Shown here: positions 10,010 through 16,984 of the stretch, one piece after another
How the letters are laid out: the number at the start of each line of letters is the position of its first letter
How positions within the stretch are numbered: position 1 is the stretch's first letter
Assembly: GCA_007130825.1 (NCBI GenBank)
Contig: SLRT01000132.1
Coordinates: forward strand, 1 to 38,716
DNA from: Syntrophomonadaceae bacterium
GTDB lineage: Bacteria > Bacillota > Dethiobacteria > DTU022
Direction: 5' to 3'
DNA length: 38,716 bases
Notes under the pieces: generated by a model
Told to the model about the DNA's origin: nothing
Database searches by the model: none
Seen by the model: the letters and a program-made list of their open reading frames with translations, nothing else
Position numbers and translations under genes: made by a program

Positions 10010-10987
10010 CTATTCGCTTTCCGGGGTAGGGGGCACAAAGATGCTTCGTTCTAAAAAACGGTCCCAGTCCGCCCAGTCGCCGCTTTCCGGAACGTGCTTG
10101 TCCATGAGGATCGCAAACTGGTTCAGACGGGCGCTGAGCAGATCGGCATGGTAAAGGGCGAAAGCGTGGATCGTTTTCGGCACCTCAGGCGAACCCCACT
10201 CGCGATTGCCGTGGTGGGCAAGCAGCATATGTTCCAGCTCCAGGCGCAGGCCGGGCGGGAAAGCGGACAAATCGGCCATCTTTCTGTCCAGCATTTCTTT
10301 GCCGATACTGATATGGCCGACCAGCTTGCCACGGTCGGTAAATTCAAAGCTTAAACTCTCCTGCCGGTATTCTTCAATCTTGCCGATATCGTGCAAAAGA
10401 GCGCCGGTTAACAGCAAATCAAGGCGGATTTTTTCCGGGTAGAGGGCAGCCTGGTGGCGGCAAAAATAGACCACCTCCAGGGTGTGCTCCAGCAAACCGC
10501 TGATGTAGTTGTGATGGATAGTCCGCGCTGCCGGCGCTAGGGCAAAACTCCGGGAAAATTCTTCTTCGCCGAAAAATTTTTCGAGAAGGGCTTTTAAGTT
10601 ATCTTCCTCTATATCTGCTTCGATAACCGCCTTAAGCTCAGCCATCATTTCTTTCGGATCGCGCTTGGAAACCGGCTGAAAAAAGGAACGGTTCACTCTT
10701 GCGGGGTCGAGCTTGCGCAGGTCGCTTACTACCACCTGCGGGCCGTGATAATCACCGACCGAACCGCGCACAAAGACCACCTCGTCCTGCTGCACCGCTT
10801 CTTCTCCGCGGGGCGGATCCCACATTACCGCCTTGACCCGGCCGCTGACATCACCCAGCATGAGCTTTAAAAAATATTCCCCGGAGCGGTGCGGGGCGGA
10901 AAAAGCGGCCCGGTTAACTTCCAGGACCAGGGCCTGGGTTTCCACTTCGTCACCAATCCGCAAATCCTTGATCATCTGTTTTTTCAT
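10010..10987 (-). CDS. YhaM-type 3'-5' exoribonuclease, OB-fold plus HD domain
   Basis: YhaM proteins degrade RNA (and ssDNA) from the 3' end. The N-terminal 90 residues form an OB-fold nucleic-acid-binding domain (IGDEVETQALVLEVNRA and GDVSGRVKAVMWDPP). The HD phosphohydrolase domain follows, with His in IHHNYISGLLEHTLEVV, the HD pair in LLHDIGKIEEY and a further metal ligand in LLAHHGNREWG. The C-terminal YHADLLSARLNQF segment is typical of the YhaM group. The start is ATG at 10987, eight bases after AGGAG. A possible promoter is at 11036-11064. The gene stands at the head of the leftward run that includes the TPR gene. Confidence 0.9.
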   Translation of the reverse strand: MKKQMIKDLRIGDEVETQALVLEVNRAAFSAPHRSGEYFLKLMLGDVSGRVKAVMWDPPRGEEAVQQDEVVFVRGSVGDYHGPQVVVSDLRKLDPARVNRSFFQPVSKRDPKEMMAELKAVIEADIEEDNLKALLEKFFGEEEFSRSFALAPAARTIHHNYISGLLEHTLEVVYFCRHQAALYPEKIRLDLLLTGALLHDIGKIEEYRQESLSFEFTDRGKLVGHISIGKEMLDRKMADLSAFPPGLRLELEHMLLAHHGNREWGSPEVPKTIHAFALYHADLLSARLNQFAILMDKHVPESGDWADWDRFLERSIFVPPTPESE

Positions 10988-11448
10988 CAATTTCTCCTGT
11001 TCTCTTTTTGTTTACCAACTGCAGCTTCGCTACTAAATTTATCACAAAGCCGGAGCACTGTGAAGGGCAAATCCGAGTCAATATCCGGCCGTAGTATTGA
11101 ATTGTTCTGAGCAACATGTTATTTTTAAAATGCCGCTTTGTAAAAATATTAAGCAGTAAATGTTAAGGACAACATAATATTTAAACATCAATTATAACTG
11201 TACAGATTATAAAACAGGACAAAACCGTGATAATAAAAGGGGGCTGGACCGCTTAAAAGCCTGTGTTTAAAGCCTCTTTCGTCTGGCTCAGGCGCTTTTT
11301 GCAACCTTAATTATGAGAAATATCCGGGCCTGGAATACAAGCCTGAACATCATTTCTTAATAAATACATAACATTTCTACACAATTTTATAAAAAACTAT
11401 TGACAAAACCGGCGGCAGGTGTTAGATTATGTTCCAGCGAGGTGTTTT
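10988..11448. other. Intergenic region between divergent genes
   Basis: About 460 A+T-rich bases with no convincing gene. On the minus strand TTCACA (11059-11064) and TAAATT (11036-11041), 17 bases apart, could serve the YhaM-like gene. On the plus strand a promoter for the secreted-protein gene is at 11400-11430. I see no riboswitch or terminator in the remaining 300 bases. Confidence 0.5.
11400..11430 (+). promoter_or_regulatory. Promoter of the first secreted-protein gene
   Basis: TTGACA (11400-11405) is a perfect -35. The best -10 is TAGATT (11423-11428), 17 bases downstream, within TTAGATTAT. The region just upstream is very A+T rich, which could act as an UP element. Confidence 0.65.
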
Positions 11449-11496
11449 ATGAAAGTCAAGAAATTATATTCACGAAAAGGAGTGATTGACGCGTGA
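11449..11496 (+). CDS. Putative 15-residue leader peptide
   Basis: ATG at 11449 opens a short frame encoding MKVKKLYSRKGVIDA. An AGGTG ribosome site lies five bases upstream. Its TGA stop (11494-11496) overlaps the GTG start (11493-11495) of the secreted-protein gene, and its last codons contain that gene's GGAG ribosome site. Translating ribosomes would therefore arrive exactly at the next start. It may couple or tune translation. It could also be chance, since only position and a ribosome site support it. Confidence 0.4.
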   Translation: MKVKKLYSRKGVIDA

Positions 11497-12533
11497 AAAA
11501 GAAATTAGCATTTGCATTAGCCGTAGTGTTTGTGCTGTCCATGGCCGTACCGGCTTTTGCATCAGACATGACTCTCAACACAACCTACAAAATGGACGGA
11601 ACAATTGATCTGGAAAAGCAGGTTGGTCACCTTTGCAACACCGGGGCACAAATGAACCAGACCATCTCCGGTGAAGGCGAAATGGAAAAGACCATGAACA
11701 CTACCCAGATTGCAGGCAGGGTTACCGTCGACGACAGCCAGGACTTTGTCACTGCTGAAGACGCCGTAGAAAACCTGTCCGTAACCAGCTCGATCAGGCT
11801 CTGCGCACCGGCAAAGCATGAGTTGAGCGCAGAAGAAAGAACTTACCTGGACGAGTTTCATCAGGACCATATTCCCGCAGATGCCTGGCAAACAACTTGG
11901 GCTGACACCATGGTCCCTGATGCATTAAGGGGATACTGGAACTTGGGCTGGGACAGCTGGGAAGGCGTAGATCTCCGTGACCAGCTAATGGATGCAGCTC
12001 CAACTGCCACATGGAGAGCTGCTATTGCTGCCACACCTGATGGTCAATTAGAAGATCTTATTGCAACACATTACAATGCAGCACCGTGGTTGGAACAATT
12101 CCTCGTCTACACGACATGGGATTATACCGCACTGACCACCCAGACCTGGGCCGCTTACGTTGAAGCTGAGCCCGGAGAAATGGGTACACTTACCCAGGAC
12201 TTCGAAGCTGCCTACGGCTGGTATGATGAACAACCAGTTACTGAAACATTCGGCGGCCGCCCCGACCAGTGGGGCTTTGTCGGCGATCCTGACTACGGCT
12301 GGGCCATTGCCACAGGCGATGACTATGTTGGAAACTACTTCAACATTGACCAGTTAGCTTACGTTTCCGATGGCGAAGTAAGACGCTTCATCGATATCAG
12401 CAGCCCGTTTTCACACGCTTTCGTTCATGAAGACATGAGCGTAGTGGGTATGGCTGAAATCGAAGATGTATTCGCCATGGATAACATTGAGCCCGGAGAA
12501 GAAGCAGTACCCGATTGGTGGGACCTGTTCTAA
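11493..12533 (+). CDS. Secreted protein of unrecognised family, paralogue 1
   Basis: A 346-residue acidic protein with a clear Sec signal peptide: KKK, a hydrophobic core, and likely cleavage after AFA at residue 23. I do not recognise the family. The mature protein has an N-terminal block (about 25-108) with its only two cysteines, Cys48 and Cys104. A variable tryptophan-rich middle follows, then a conserved C-terminal block from about residue 275 (GDDYVGNYFNIDQ, RRFIDISSPFS, EDMSVVGMAEI, DNIEPG), ending in DLF. There is no membrane anchor, LPxTG or SLH domain, so it is probably released or bound non-covalently. The start is GTG at 11493, with AAAAGGAG ten bases upstream. It has its own promoter and terminator. 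A shorter paralogue follows at 12727. Confidence 0.85.
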   Translation: MKKKLAFALAVVFVLSMAVPAFASDMTLNTTYKMDGTIDLEKQVGHLCNTGAQMNQTISGEGEMEKTMNTTQIAGRVTVDDSQDFVTAEDAVENLSVTSSIRLCAPAKHELSAEERTYLDEFHQDHIPADAWQTTWADTMVPDALRGYWNLGWDSWEGVDLRDQLMDAAPTATWRAAIAATPDGQLEDLIATHYNAAPWLEQFLVYTTWDYTALTTQTWAAYVEAEPGEMGTLTQDFEAAYGWYDEQPVTETFGGRPDQWGFVGDPDYGWAIATGDDYVGNYFNIDQLAYVSDGEVRRFIDISSPFSHAFVHEDMSVVGMAEIEDVFAMDNIEPGEEAVPDWWDLF

Positions 12534-12570
12534 ATTAAGTTAAAGTGTTAGTTCACCTCGCTAATGCTTA

Positions 12571-12607
12571 AAAACAGGGGAGATATTATTTCTCCCCTGT
12601 TTTTTTT
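12571..12607 (+). terminator. Rho-independent terminator after secreted protein 1
   Basis: AAAACAGGGGAGA (12571-12583) pairs with TCTCCCCTGTTTT (12591-12603) around a seven-base loop, and T residues continue to 12607. This should separate the transcripts of the two paralogues. Confidence 0.92.
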
Positions 12608-12726
12608 AATCCCGACGGTAATTTGACAGTAAAATTCTTTCATGCTATAGTTTGTGGGACACAATCTGCTTAAAACAACCGTTAAAAAATGACACATATT
12701 AGTCGTAGAAAGGATGTGTTCAAGGA

Positions 12727-13599
12727 GTGCAAAAAGAGTCTTTTCTTTCGTTTTACCTTGCGTTTGTACTGCTGCTGGCACTGGCGATCCCGGTCTTCGC
12801 TGAAGAAGGCCCGCGTTTCAGTCATTCTGCCCGGTACGATATCGACGGAATTATGGATATTACCAAGGAATTCGGTGATCCCTGCACAACCGGAGCTTTT
12901 AAACGGCAGACAATTCGGGGCCAGGGTAAATTTACCAAGTCGGAGGATGTTCAGATCGCCCGGCACATCATGTCTTTTGAGGATGAAATGGAATGGAGCA
13001 CCGCTGATGAAGCAGTTAGCAACCTGCAGGTAACCTCGCGCATCGAGCTGTGCGCACGCCCAATGTCTGCGGCGGCAGACGACTATGCAGCCGAGTATGT
13101 CTACGACAATGATTACGAGTTGATAAGAGAAGGTTATGATATCCGGCAAGGGGACATTATCAGTCCCTATCACCCGCTTGTTGTCGAGGGCCTGCTGGGG
13201 GTGAGCCCTTTGACCAGGCAGGTCTGGGCCACTGCCGTTTCATCTGAACCGGGACATGAAGGCGCCTACAAGGCTGACTTTATCGCCGCTTACGGACCCG
13301 GTCCACATGACGAAGAAGCTTACGGTAAAGGTTACCGGTGGTGGTTTGATGACGATGACATGGGAAGCATCAGTCACGGCGACCGCTACGTGGGCAACTA
13401 TTTTGAAATAGACCAGTATGTCTTCACCTCCTCCGGTGAAACCAGGCGTTTTTTAAGCATCAGCAGTCCCTTCTCTAATGCCTACATAGAAGAAGACTTA
13501 TCGGTTACCGGCATGGCTGAAATAACAGATGACTTTAAGATGGATAACCTTGAGCCCGGTATAGATGCAATCACTCTGGCCTGGCATGATCTGTTCTAA
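12727..13599 (+). CDS. Secreted protein of unrecognised family, paralogue 2
   Basis: A 290-residue acidic protein with a signal peptide (hydrophobic core about 6-22, likely cleavage after VFA at residue 25). Its two cysteines, Cys53 and Cys109, are 56 residues apart, exactly as in the upstream paralogue. The middle is shorter but keeps LTRQVWATAVSSEPG and DFIAAYG, which match LTTQTWAAYVEAEPG and DFEAAYG. The C-terminal block from about residue 218 (GDRYVGNYFEIDQ, RRFLSISSPFS, EDLSVTGMAEI, DNLEPG, DLF) aligns almost without gaps. The start is GTG at 12727 with GAAAGGA about 12 bases upstream; no in-frame alternative fits before the stop at 12706. It lies between two terminators, so it is probably transcribed on its own. 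Tandem duplication is the likely origin. Confidence 0.83.
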   Translation: MQKESFLSFYLAFVLLLALAIPVFAEEGPRFSHSARYDIDGIMDITKEFGDPCTTGAFKRQTIRGQGKFTKSEDVQIARHIMSFEDEMEWSTADEAVSNLQVTSRIELCARPMSAAADDYAAEYVYDNDYELIREGYDIRQGDIISPYHPLVVEGLLGVSPLTRQVWATAVSSEPGHEGAYKADFIAAYGPGPHDEEAYGKGYRWWFDDDDMGSISHGDRYVGNYFEIDQYVFTSSGETRRFLSISSPFSNAYIEEDLSVTGMAEITDDFKMDNLEPGIDAITLAWHDLF

Positions 13600-13789: not shown

Positions 13790-14641
13790 TTATTGGTAGC
13801 TGTAGAACCCGCGGCCGCTCTTGCGGCCCAGGTGGCCGGCACGAACCATCTTTCGAATCAGGGGGCAGACCCGGTACTTAGAGTCTCCGGTCTCTTTGTA
13901 GAGCGTATCCTGCACAGCCAAAAGCACATCTATACCGACCAGGTCGGCCAGGGCCAGGGGACCGAGCGGGTGGTTGGCTCCGAGTGTCATTCCTTTATCT
14001 ATATCTTCAGCGCTGGCTACTCCTTCCAGCAAAACGTAAGCAGCCTCATTGATCATCGGTATCAGGATACGGTTGACCACGAACAAAGGGGCCTCGTTGA
14101 CGGCAATCGGCTCCTTGCCCATCGCGCGGGAAATATTCATGATCAGCTCAAAAGTGTCTTCCGAAGTAACAGCCCCTTTGGTCACCTCGACCAATTTCAT
14201 CACCGGAGCCGGGTTGAAAAAATGCATGCCGGCGACCTTATCGGGCCGCCTGGTAGCCAAAGCCATCTCGCTGATGCTAAGACCGGAAGTATTTGAAGCC
14301 AGGACAGTGTCCGGAGAACAGATCCGGTCCAAACCCTCAAAGATCTCTTTTTTCACCTCAATATCTTCGACTGCCGCCTCGATAACCAGGTCGGACTTGT
14401 CCAGGTCTTCAAGGTTAACCGTGCCGCGGATGCGGCCGACAATTTCTTCAGCTTCCTTTTTACCAATTTTTCCTTTATCGACTGCGCGCTCCAGGTTTTT
14501 TTTGATCGCATTCAGCCCGCGCTGGACAAAACTGTCTTCGATATCGCGCATAATTACTGCAAAACCGGCCTGAGCAGCAACCTGGGCAATACCGCTGCCC
14601 ATGTTTCCGGATCCGACCACGCCGATCACTTTGATATCCAT
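13790..14641 (-). CDS. hbd: 3-hydroxybutyryl-CoA dehydrogenase
   Basis: It interconverts acetoacetyl-CoA and 3-hydroxybutyryl-CoA with NAD(P)H. The protein has about 283 residues. The N-terminal Rossmann domain starts IKVIGVVGSGNMGSGIAQVAAQAGF, with GxGxxG and the following helix. The catalytic GMHFFNPAPVMKLVEV motif contains the active His. The C-terminal helical domain has LGANHPLGPLALADLVGIDVLL and GRKSGRGFYSY at the end, both typical of the bacterial butanoate enzyme. The start is ATG at 14641, nine bases after AAAGGAG. It follows crt and thl in the same direction with roughly 200 bases between hbd and crt. bcd and etfAB are not in the window. Confidence 0.94.
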   Translation of the reverse strand: MDIKVIGVVGSGNMGSGIAQVAAQAGFAVIMRDIEDSFVQRGLNAIKKNLERAVDKGKIGKKEAEEIVGRIRGTVNLEDLDKSDLVIEAAVEDIEVKKEIFEGLDRICSPDTVLASNTSGLSISEMALATRRPDKVAGMHFFNPAPVMKLVEVTKGAVTSEDTFELIMNISRAMGKEPIAVNEAPLFVVNRILIPMINEAAYVLLEGVASAEDIDKGMTLGANHPLGPLALADLVGIDVLLAVQDTLYKETGDSKYRVCPLIRKMVRAGHLGRKSGRGFYSYQ

Positions 14642-14851
14642 CTTCCTCAACTCCTTTTTCTACATAATACTGATTCATGTTTGCATTAACCTTGCCTTTT
14701 CCGGGTATTCGTTTTATAAGAAGCGCCATCCCCGCAATTATTGGCCGCAAGGTTGTTTTGCACGTGCCTTTAAGAATAATTTAAGCCTGCAAGTCACCCT
14801 CACTCCATGGACCGTCTACTCCTGGGAAGAAAGGATTAAAATAAAAAACTT

Positions 14852-15628
14852 TTACCTGCCCTTAAAATCGGGCGGGCGCTTTTCAAGAAAGGCAACAGCC
14901 CCTTCTTTTTGGTCTTCAGTATCACACAATGCGGCAAATAGAGCTGATTCGGTCTTCTGCCCTTCTTCGAGAGACTGTTCCAGCCCCTTGTTTACCGCTT
15001 GTTTGGCCAGGCGGACAGCAATCGGGCCTGCTTTTAATATCGCGCCGGCAATTTCACGGGCCTTGTCCAGGGAACCGCCGGCCCGGGTAAGGTGATCGGC
15101 CAGGCCGATCCGGTACGCTTCGGCGGCATCGATCATGGCACCGGTAAAGATCAGTTCTTTGGCTTTGCCGGTGGCAATGACCCGCGGCAAACGCTGCGTG
15201 CCGGCATAACCGGGGAAAATGCCGAGGGTGACCTCGGGCAAGCCGACCCTGGCATTATCGCTGACAACCCGGATATCGCAAGAAAGGGCCAGTTCCAGCC
15301 CCCCGCCCAAAGCGAAACCGTTAACGGCGGCAATCACCGGGGCCGGGAAATCGGCAATCTTCTGCAACACCTGCTGTCCGCGGCGGCTTAGTTTTTCTCC
15401 GTTGCTGCTGTTGATTTTCGGAAATTCGTTGATATCTGCCCCGGCCACAAATGCTTTTTCGCCGGAACCGGTTAGAATAACCACACCCGCCGATTGATCT
15501 TCAGCCAGTTGATCAAAAACACCTTCCAAAGCATCCAGCACCTCATGATTCAGGGCATTAACCGGCGGACGGCTGATGGTAACCACAGCCAGGCGCTCTT
15601 CCCGGGTGATTTGCACGAGATCGGACAT
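14852..15628 (-). CDS. crt: Enoyl-CoA hydratase (crotonase)
   Basis: It hydrates crotonyl-CoA to 3-hydroxybutyryl-CoA, or the reverse. The protein has 258 residues of the crotonase fold. Visible motifs are RPPVNALNHEVLDAL, the first oxyanion segment AFVAGADINEF, the second oxyanion loop FALGGGLELALSCD and the catalytic-Glu segment VGLPEVTLGIFPGYAGTQRLPR. The start is ATG at 15628, seven bases after AAGGAGG; an upstream GTG at 15661 is not needed. It lies between thl and hbd, matching consecutive steps of one pathway. It could serve butyrate formation or syntrophic butyrate oxidation; direction cannot be told from sequence. Confidence 0.92.
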   Translation of the reverse strand: MSDLVQITREERLAVVTISRPPVNALNHEVLDALEGVFDQLAEDQSAGVVILTGSGEKAFVAGADINEFPKINSSNGEKLSRRGQQVLQKIADFPAPVIAAVNGFALGGGLELALSCDIRVVSDNARVGLPEVTLGIFPGYAGTQRLPRVIATGKAKELIFTGAMIDAAEAYRIGLADHLTRAGGSLDKAREIAGAILKAGPIAVRLAKQAVNKGLEQSLEEGQKTESALFAALCDTEDQKEGAVAFLEKRPPDFKGR

Positions 15629-15796
15629 TTTTAATTCCTCCTTCATAATATACTGGGTCACTTCTTTTTTTCCTTCTCCTGGATGGGAAAATCATTTACC
15701 TTCAAAATCATTCTGTAATAATCGATTCCGCTTAGGATTTATTCTCCTTAAAGAAAGAGGGGGAAATAATTAACCTTGAATCGTCGAAAGTTATCA

Positions 15797-16984
15797 CTAA
15801 TTGCGCTCCAGGATCATGGCCATGCCCATACCACCGCCCACGCAGAGGGTAGCAAGCCCGTATTTATTATTACGCCTGGCCATTTCATGGAGGAGGGTGA
15901 CAACCAGGCGGGCCCCGGTGCAGCCTACCGGGTGACCGAGACCGATACCGCTGCCGTTTACATTGACCAGATCCCGGTTTAATTCAAGCAGTTTTTCACA
16001 GGCCAGGTACTGGGCGGCAAAAGCTTCGTTTAGTTCGATCAATTCCATCTCTTTTAGAGACATTCCCGCCTTCTTCAGCGCTTTCTCTGTAGCCGGCACC
16101 GGGCCATAGCCCATCAGGTCCGGTTCTACCCCTGCCCAGGCATAGGAAACGATACGGGCGAGCGGTTTTAAACCTAAAGATTCCGCTTTCCCGGCGCTCA
16201 TAACTACTACAGCGGCGGCGCCGTCATTTAAACCGGAGGAGTTTCCGGCGGTTACGCTACCTTCCCTGCGAAATACCGGTTTTAATTTGGCCAGGTTTTC
16301 CCGGGAAATATCACGGCGCGGATGTTCGTCGGTATCGACAACTGTTTCTCCTTTGCCGGTGCGAACAGTCACCGGCGCTATCTCTTCCCTGAAGCGTCCG
16401 TTGTCGATCGCCTCTATTGCCTTAAGGTTGCTGCGGGCGGCAATTTCGTCCTGTTCTTCACGGCTGATCTGGTATTTTTCGGCCAGGCGTTCTGCTGTTT
16501 CACCCATCATAATTTTATACACGGGGTCGGTGAGCATTTCCCACAGGGCATCAGTCATTTCGCCGTGCTGCAGCCTCTGGCCCCAGCGGGCTCCTTTAAG
16601 CACGTAGGGAGCAGAACTCATCGACTCAACCCCGCCGGCAACTACTATTTCTGCATCACCGAGGATTATTTCCTGGCAGGCGGACGCTATGGACTGCATC
16701 GCCGAACTGCACTGGCGCTGGATGGTAAAACCGGTGGTTTGCACAGGAAACCCTGTTTCCAGCGCGATACAGCGGGCAATGTTTGGTTCGTCGCTGCGCT
16801 GGCTGCAGTTGCCGAAAATAACTTCTTCGACCTGCTCTTTTTTTAAGCCTCCGGCGCGGCGGACTGCTTCTTCGACAACTGTAGCGCCGAGATGTAAAGC
16901 GGAAACGCTGCGGAAAGCCCCGCCGAAGTCGCCGATCGGTGTGCGGGCTGCGCTTACAATTACCGGCTCTTTATGTTTGAGCAT
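15797..16984 (-). CDS. thlA: Acetyl-CoA C-acetyltransferase (thiolase)
   Basis: It condenses two acetyl-CoA to acetoacetyl-CoA or cleaves acetoacetyl-CoA. The 395 residues are full length. The nucleophilic Cys92 is in [33 protein letters not shown] is the substrate loop and [10 protein letters not shown] the conserved Asn region. His351 is in GLGHPVG and the acid/base Cys381 is in [10 protein letters not shown]. The start is ATG at 16984 with GGAGG upstream. It heads the thl-crt-hbd group and is separated from metF by a terminator, so its transcript is probably independent of the acs operon although both use acetyl-CoA. The gene symbol is by function; a phaA-type role is possible. Confidence 0.94.

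Follow-up and report, generated by a model that had tools for sequence, protein, structure and literature searches.

Two adjacent genes of a soda-lake Syntrophomonadaceae bacterium encode exported beta proteins of a new family restricted to one lineage

Genes A and B, which lie side by side on contig SLRT01000132.1 of a Syntrophomonadaceae bacterium (GenBank: GCA_007130825.1), encode exported beta proteins that belong to a new, lineage-restricted family. Both products may be abundant, with a structural or adhesive role at the cell surface or in the extracellular matrix, a reading drawn from sequence comparisons to which we give about an even chance. In the following, "the window" means the whole stretch of 38,716 nucleotides that was analysed, L-numbers designate family loci and C-numbers designate contigs of the own genome.

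Results

Organisation of the gene pair

The initial annotation had described two adjacent exported paralogues of 346 and 290 aa with common N and C blocks, and the open reading frames, signal sequences and BLASTP alignments confirmed this description (Table 1). Its reading frames were correct, but the start that it gave, position 11449, lies 44 bases 5' of the actual start codon. Individual alignments of A with B showed 71 of 136 identical aa for the C block (52%; E 3e-37) and 43 of 105 for the N block (41%; E 1e-16), a similarity that by BLASTP is far beyond chance. Both signal sequences are basic-hydrophobic with an A-x-A-like site at their end (PAFA in A, PVFA in B). The proteins are very acidic (pI 4.05 and 4.34 for A and B, respectively), and the earlier statement that they lack an anchor was borne out for these two proteins.

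A and B look like separate transcription units, as a terminator-like hairpin lies between them and a near-consensus promoter precedes each gene. A stretch of 32-35 bases with 91% similarity to the hairpin region is also found 3' of the paralogue on contig C68.

Table 1. Positions of the gene pair, its parts and its neighbours in the window
Feature	Position	Strand	Basis and remarks
Gene A	11493..12533	+	GTG start, 346 aa; N block, helical middle, C block, WWDLF end
Gene B	12727..13599	+	GTG start, 290 aa; architecture as gene A
Signal sequence of A, residues 1-23, ..VPAFA	11493..11561	+	sequence inspection; cleavage site inferred
N block of A, residues 24-112	11562..11828	+	predicted strands 26-46, 52-73, 76-87, 96-103; N-block HMM E 4e-40
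Cys48 of A	11634..11636	+	turn joining strands 1 and 2 of N block (predicted)
Cys104 of A	11802..11804	+	one residue past strand 96-103 (predicted)
Variable middle of A, residues 113-211	11829..12125	+	predicted helical, low confidence, pLDDT 44-83; paralogues differ in length
C block of A, residues 212-340	12126..12512	+	C-block HMM E 2e-52; AlphaFold2 strands
C-terminal WWDLF of A	12516..12530	+	sequence
Signal sequence of B, residues 1-25, ..IPVFA	12727..12801	+	sequence inspection; cleavage site inferred
N block of B, residues 31-114	12817..13068	+	block HMM E 1e-38
Cys53 of B	12883..12885	+	sequence
Cys109 of B	13051..13053	+	sequence
C block of B, residues 161-282	13207..13572	+	block HMM E 6e-52
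C-terminal WHDLF of B	13582..13596	+	sequence
Putative promoter of gene A, TTGACA-17-TAGATT, TG before second hexamer	11400..11428	+	consensus match only, 10/12
Putative promoter of gene B, TTGACA-17-TATAGT, TG before second hexamer	12623..12651	+	consensus match, 11/12
Intrinsic-terminator-like hairpin and T run between A and B	12577..12605	+	sequence
Left slot neighbour, HD-domain protein	10010..10990	-	Pfam HD 2.5e-13
Right slot neighbour, 3-hydroxyacyl-CoA dehydrogenase	13790..14650	-	Pfam 3HCDH_N 4e-64

Comparison with known families

The family had been called unrecognised, and our searches agree. No Pfam family matched A or B at E<=1 (the curated gathering cut-off was not reached), single scans of 31 members against Pfam gave scattered weak matches only (best E 0.03), and a profile of 31 sequences matched nothing among PDB sequences even at E 10. 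NCBIfam returned two matches to A, both far under the cut-off and both spanning the signal sequence: ExtJ (NF040942) with 15.7 bits against a curated cut-off of 52.5, over residues 2-54, and clostridial SlpA (NF033435). The latter resembles A and B in being exported, acidic and presumably abundant, but A scores 13 bits against a curated cut-off of 650, over its first 103 residues including the signal sequence, and across the family SlpA was matched in only two of 40 members (best E 1.5e-4). TasA/camelysin (Peptidase_M73, PF12389) gave no match at E<=1 with A, B or the members of alignment A1; a weak match below the cut-off in L134 is located in the repeats of that protein. Pfam detected no Big_1/invasin-type Ig-like repeats in A or B, and such repeats are present in the relative L130. 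A limited literature search found no description of the family. A and B match both block models as well as the joint profile (4.5e-105 and 1.1e-99), in whose alignment both are themselves rows. Internal duplication, with the N block homologous to the C block, was rejected (profile comparison probability 0.6%).

Predicted structure

AlphaFold2 modelling of A with 31 sequences reached a pLDDT of 80.8 and a pTM of 0.67. The four strands of the N block were predicted at pLDDT ~95-98, the C block within the full protein displayed six to eight strands, mostly at pLDDT 90-98, and the last block at the end of A had a mean pLDDT of 52. The predicted beta strands of both blocks agree with the confident fold anticipated for a new family. 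The proposed two-domain organisation is doubtful; one composite beta domain with a variable helical insert fits better. Modelled alone, the C block reached only pLDDT 72.8 and pTM 0.50, below its confidence within the full protein. This would suit a domain that depends on the N block or on a partner, and may also stem from the alignment instead of an absent partner.

Foldseek and VIA searches against PDB folds, with the full model and with the C-block-only model, returned background-level rows only. The top Foldseek rows for the model were MACPF, CDC and gasdermin pores (best E 1.3e-3, TM ~0.1), and the VIA rows were outer-membrane barrels with a best Z of 7.0, values of 7-8 being typical without a relative. 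BamA, TamA and LptD barrels and MACPF pores share long antiparallel strands with the model but lack any sequence relation to it, and their scores are those of the background. The best structural neighbour of the lone C block was DUF4425 (PDB: 3u6g, 4qey; Z 5.4 over 81 residues at 3.8 angstrom); this score is, however, under the level that separates relatives from chance, the identity is 7% and DUF4425 is known from Bacteroides. These background rows thus reveal no known fold, which does not prove a new one. The invariant residues are mainly glycine and aromatic, and conservation gave the impression of no obvious catalytic set.

The cysteine pair

Mature A and mature B contain exactly two cysteines each (48/104 and 53/109), 56 residues apart in both as originally noted. 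This spacing is not fixed family-wide, being 53-54 in L068, L069, L179 and L130, in which two or three loop residues are missing. Among 46 N-block proteins, 25 have both cysteines, 18 have neither and three have one. On the tree the pair marks a single clade, in which 25 of 26 members keep both cysteines and the remaining member lost one; in the nearest cysteine-free group, five of six members have Tyr and Phe in place of the cysteines. The proposal of a conserved disulfide is thus partly supported, the pair being retained in this one clade, but since co-occurrence of the two residues amounts to about one joint event on the tree, it is weak evidence for a disulfide. Judged from the sequences, a disulfide in the A/B clade is plausible. 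Going by the strand order of the model, Cys48 and Cys104 would be neighbours if the fourth strand runs along the upper half of strand 52-73.

Divergence of the variable middle

The middle evolves fast, as had been noted: in distant pairs it is far more divergent than the blocks and rich in indels, and A shares 16 of 84 aa of the middle with its L123 relative vs 61 of 84 in the N block. Many members have a short helical insert or none. The accompanying suggestion that the middle is perhaps under selection found no support, because dN is below dS in all close pairs with estimable dS (for the L067 pair, dN/dS = 0.055/0.153), and positive selection on this segment was rejected. Its divergence fits weak constraint, not adaptive change.

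The C-terminal peptide and the promoters

W-x-x-L-F or a close variant forms the C-terminus of 67 of the 86 complete C-block proteins; in 14 of these, 29-86 linker residues separate it from the C block, yet the peptide still terminates the protein. It is missing from the group next to pilus genes and from the membrane-tailed form (both described below), and C-termini of a distant group are of the GWW- or GFW-type. A search of the own genome for the W-x-[DE]-L-F stop pattern detected four family genes; three further matches likewise had a real stop codon but, examined singly, were not gene ends. A general sorting tag was rejected, this search having found no non-family gene that ends in this way. 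W-x-x-L-F looks like a family feature, of which a short linear docking motif would be the simplest reading.

Promoters with at least 11 of 12 consensus bases precede 26 of 77 family genes vs eight of 207 neighbouring leader-like genes (Fisher p 1.6e-10, uncorrected for relatedness of the genes). A perfect TTGACA-17-TATAAT was found for nine of 13 genes in the pilus group vs one of 207 neighbouring genes, and most B orthologues are preceded by the promoter type of gene B. Near-consensus promoters are thus over-represented in the family, which suggests abundant products. The perfect promoters lie 5' of the pilus-neighbour family gene at L066, L105, L064, L065, L185, L187, L189, L191 and L088, several of them with a 5' leader of ~160-170 bases ahead of the start codon.

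Domain architectures of the family

Separate N-block and C-block models were used to read the architectures of the ~100 family ORFs recovered. A, B and their relatives combine both blocks. Many proteins of 130-200 aa have the C block only; in L020, L059, L096, L106, L109 and others of this type the signal ends at residues ~20-26 in [ST]TG-F-[TS], not A-x-A. Members of the pilus-neighbour group carry both blocks and an acidic extra C-terminal region that is weakly Big_4-like (best E 0.0027, four of 11 members). In L091 the C block is followed by a C-terminal hydrophobic (membrane) helix, and in L052 it lies within a protein of 867 aa.

Two further proteins bear the N block as the head of a repeat stalk, with no C block recognised. 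L130 is complete (931 aa) and continues into Big_1 repeats (PF02369; Pfam E 2.4e-30), and L134, of at least 739 aa, continues into DUF7507/DUF11 repeats (E 1e-157) until the contig end cuts the gene, so that a C block beyond this end is possible. A and B differ from these relatives in having no Ig-like or DUF11 repeat, and their N and C blocks are unmatched by the repeat models. L130 and L134 are each preceded, at a distance of 53 or 61 bases, by a gene for a separate exported protein with a C block, an arrangement that can be read as one domain divided between two exported proteins; N and C blocks from these neighbouring genes may then assemble in trans.

Taken together, the architectures are suggestive of a home-grown set of cell-surface building blocks whose halves are fused, alone or split.

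Distribution of the family

The own genome (2.33 Mb, 177 contigs) has further members on C102, C68, C19 (truncated) and C173 and a distant one on C97. A profile survey of 98 genomes of the class found 27 positive, all within the GTDB family of the window (27 of 43) and none among the 55 genomes outside it; a phylum-wide sample of 398 genomes gave three matches, again all from this GTDB family. The profile of the C97-type, a distant branch that cross-matches the C block of the others, is likewise restricted to it. This branch (L176:2779-3573, on own contig C97; L102:2152-3027) has a GWW-type C-terminus and, in some members, a helical insert of its own; at L102 the distant-branch gene adjoins A and B genes. 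In the cysteine-free group with both blocks, two members seem truncated or interrupted: L022:4794-5144 (own contig C19) has an N block, then a stop and no C block, and L190:2483-3099, in another genome, is a broken copy of a member of this group.

When 84,980 named species genomes were scanned, the loci found were mostly from Syntrophomonadaceae MAGs, with isolate names (CSSed, T1Sed, T3Sed, B1Sed) that denote Kulunda soda-lake sediments; two Bacillota MAGs from other sites were also positive. Three matches from the same lakes, L123, L130 and L134, lie in bins labelled as Hydrogenedentota, Halanaerobiaceae and Nitriliruptoria, respectively. Because their N blocks nest within the family tree, among soda-lake Syntrophomonadaceae, and the GC content of the contig binned as Nitriliruptoria is as low as 46%, these contigs are likely misbinned; those of the stalk fusions L130 and L134 are short.

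More than 50 soda-lake MAGs of this type, related to Dethiobacter and syntrophic acetate oxidisers, have been published (PMC6146748; PMC6295475). Uncultured Syntrophomonadaceae exceeded 5% in each of the five soda-lake sediment metagenomes examined and contributed ~11-20% of the amplicons from two lakes, and tight syntrophic relations have been proposed for them (PMC6146748).

Chromosomal slots

The slot of A and B between an HD-domain gene and a 3-hydroxyacyl-CoA dehydrogenase gene is kept across several genera. Homologues of the left flank, which we take to be YhaM-like, adjoin A- or B-type genes in four other genomes (L067, L068, L069, L102), and homologues of the right flank do so at L068, L069, L070, L071 and L072. 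B orthologues form a single clade with full support (8 rows, 100/100). C-block-only members occupy slots of their own, for example at L020, L096, L106, L109 and L110. Searches of phages, plasmids and viral contigs revealed no family match, and since the slots are also conserved a mobile or phage origin was rejected; by gene order, the family genes are vertically inherited in fixed slots. Beside the pair, three genes on the minus strand of the window (13790-16984) encode 3-hydroxyacyl-CoA dehydrogenase, enoyl-CoA hydratase and thiolase, which suggests a fatty-acid/butyrate pathway.

Discussion

A structural or adhesive role of A and B at the surface is favoured because of the stalk fusions, the membrane-tailed form, the promoters and the acidic composition, and because no catalytic set is recognisable; A and B themselves, having neither stalk nor anchor, count against it, as does the location of the stalk fusions on short, probably misbinned contigs. 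Each protein would form one composite beta domain, in which the N block provides four strands and the C block the remaining ones, with the variable helical segment forming a loop between the two. Within the A/B clade, Cys48 at the tip of the first hairpin is probably disulfide-bonded to Cys104 at the end of the fourth strand, and the flexible C-terminal W-x-x-L-F peptide probably docks on another subunit or surface partner. The domain would serve as a building block that is used alone as in A and B, as C block only, on Ig-like/DUF11 stalks or on a C-terminal membrane helix; in the split form, where the stalk protein carries the N block and the immediately preceding gene supplies the C block, the halves may assemble outside the cell. 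An extended version of this structural reading, which we regard as unlikely, is a lineage-specific extracellular assembly in which N and C blocks from different genes complete one fold and so clip together stalk, membrane-tethered and free subunits, with W-x-x-L-F as a second docking element.

The main rival, still on the doubtful side, is that A and B are freely secreted binding proteins, the beta domain of which binds a polysaccharide, a metal, haem or a molecule of a partner cell, while the variable middle sets the specificity of each paralogue. The missing anchors, the occupation of separate slots by several paralogous loci of one genome, the invariant polar residues of the C block (Q287, R298, S303 and E313) and the high variability of the helical insert would suit such proteins. 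Many members, however, do with a short insert or none, the N block serves as head of long stalks, and no known binding domain was matched.

It is quite unlikely that A and B are diverged relatives of accessory or minor structural parts of the type IV pilus system. The C173-like group does adjoin type IV pilus genes (T2SSF, PilM, PilO) in 7-8 loci, with perfect consensus promoters, but the gene of the own genome is convergent with the pilus genes and thus not in their operon, the A/B, C102, C68 and C97 loci have no pilus neighbours, and neither the cysteine pair nor the W-x-x-L-F end is present in the pilus subfamily. A secreted protease inhibitor, chaperone or enzyme of unknown type would agree with a small exported domain with a possible disulfide, for which sequence gives no other assignment; with no family match and no conserved catalytic-looking cluster identified, this reading is very improbable. 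Pore-forming or contact-dependent beta proteins acting on membranes, to which the pore and barrel rows of the fold searches might point, are the least probable of all, these rows being background, the strands rich in charged residues and the slots vertically inherited.

Beyond the pair itself, the analysis revealed a wider family, a conserved slot, stalk fusions, split N/C genes and a conserved W-x-x-L-F end. If the split-domain reading is true, these proteins would provide a natural protein clip functional under alkaline, high-salt conditions. As a multi-copy, strongly promoted and lineage-restricted exported family, they are a concrete candidate for the surface material of these bacteria.
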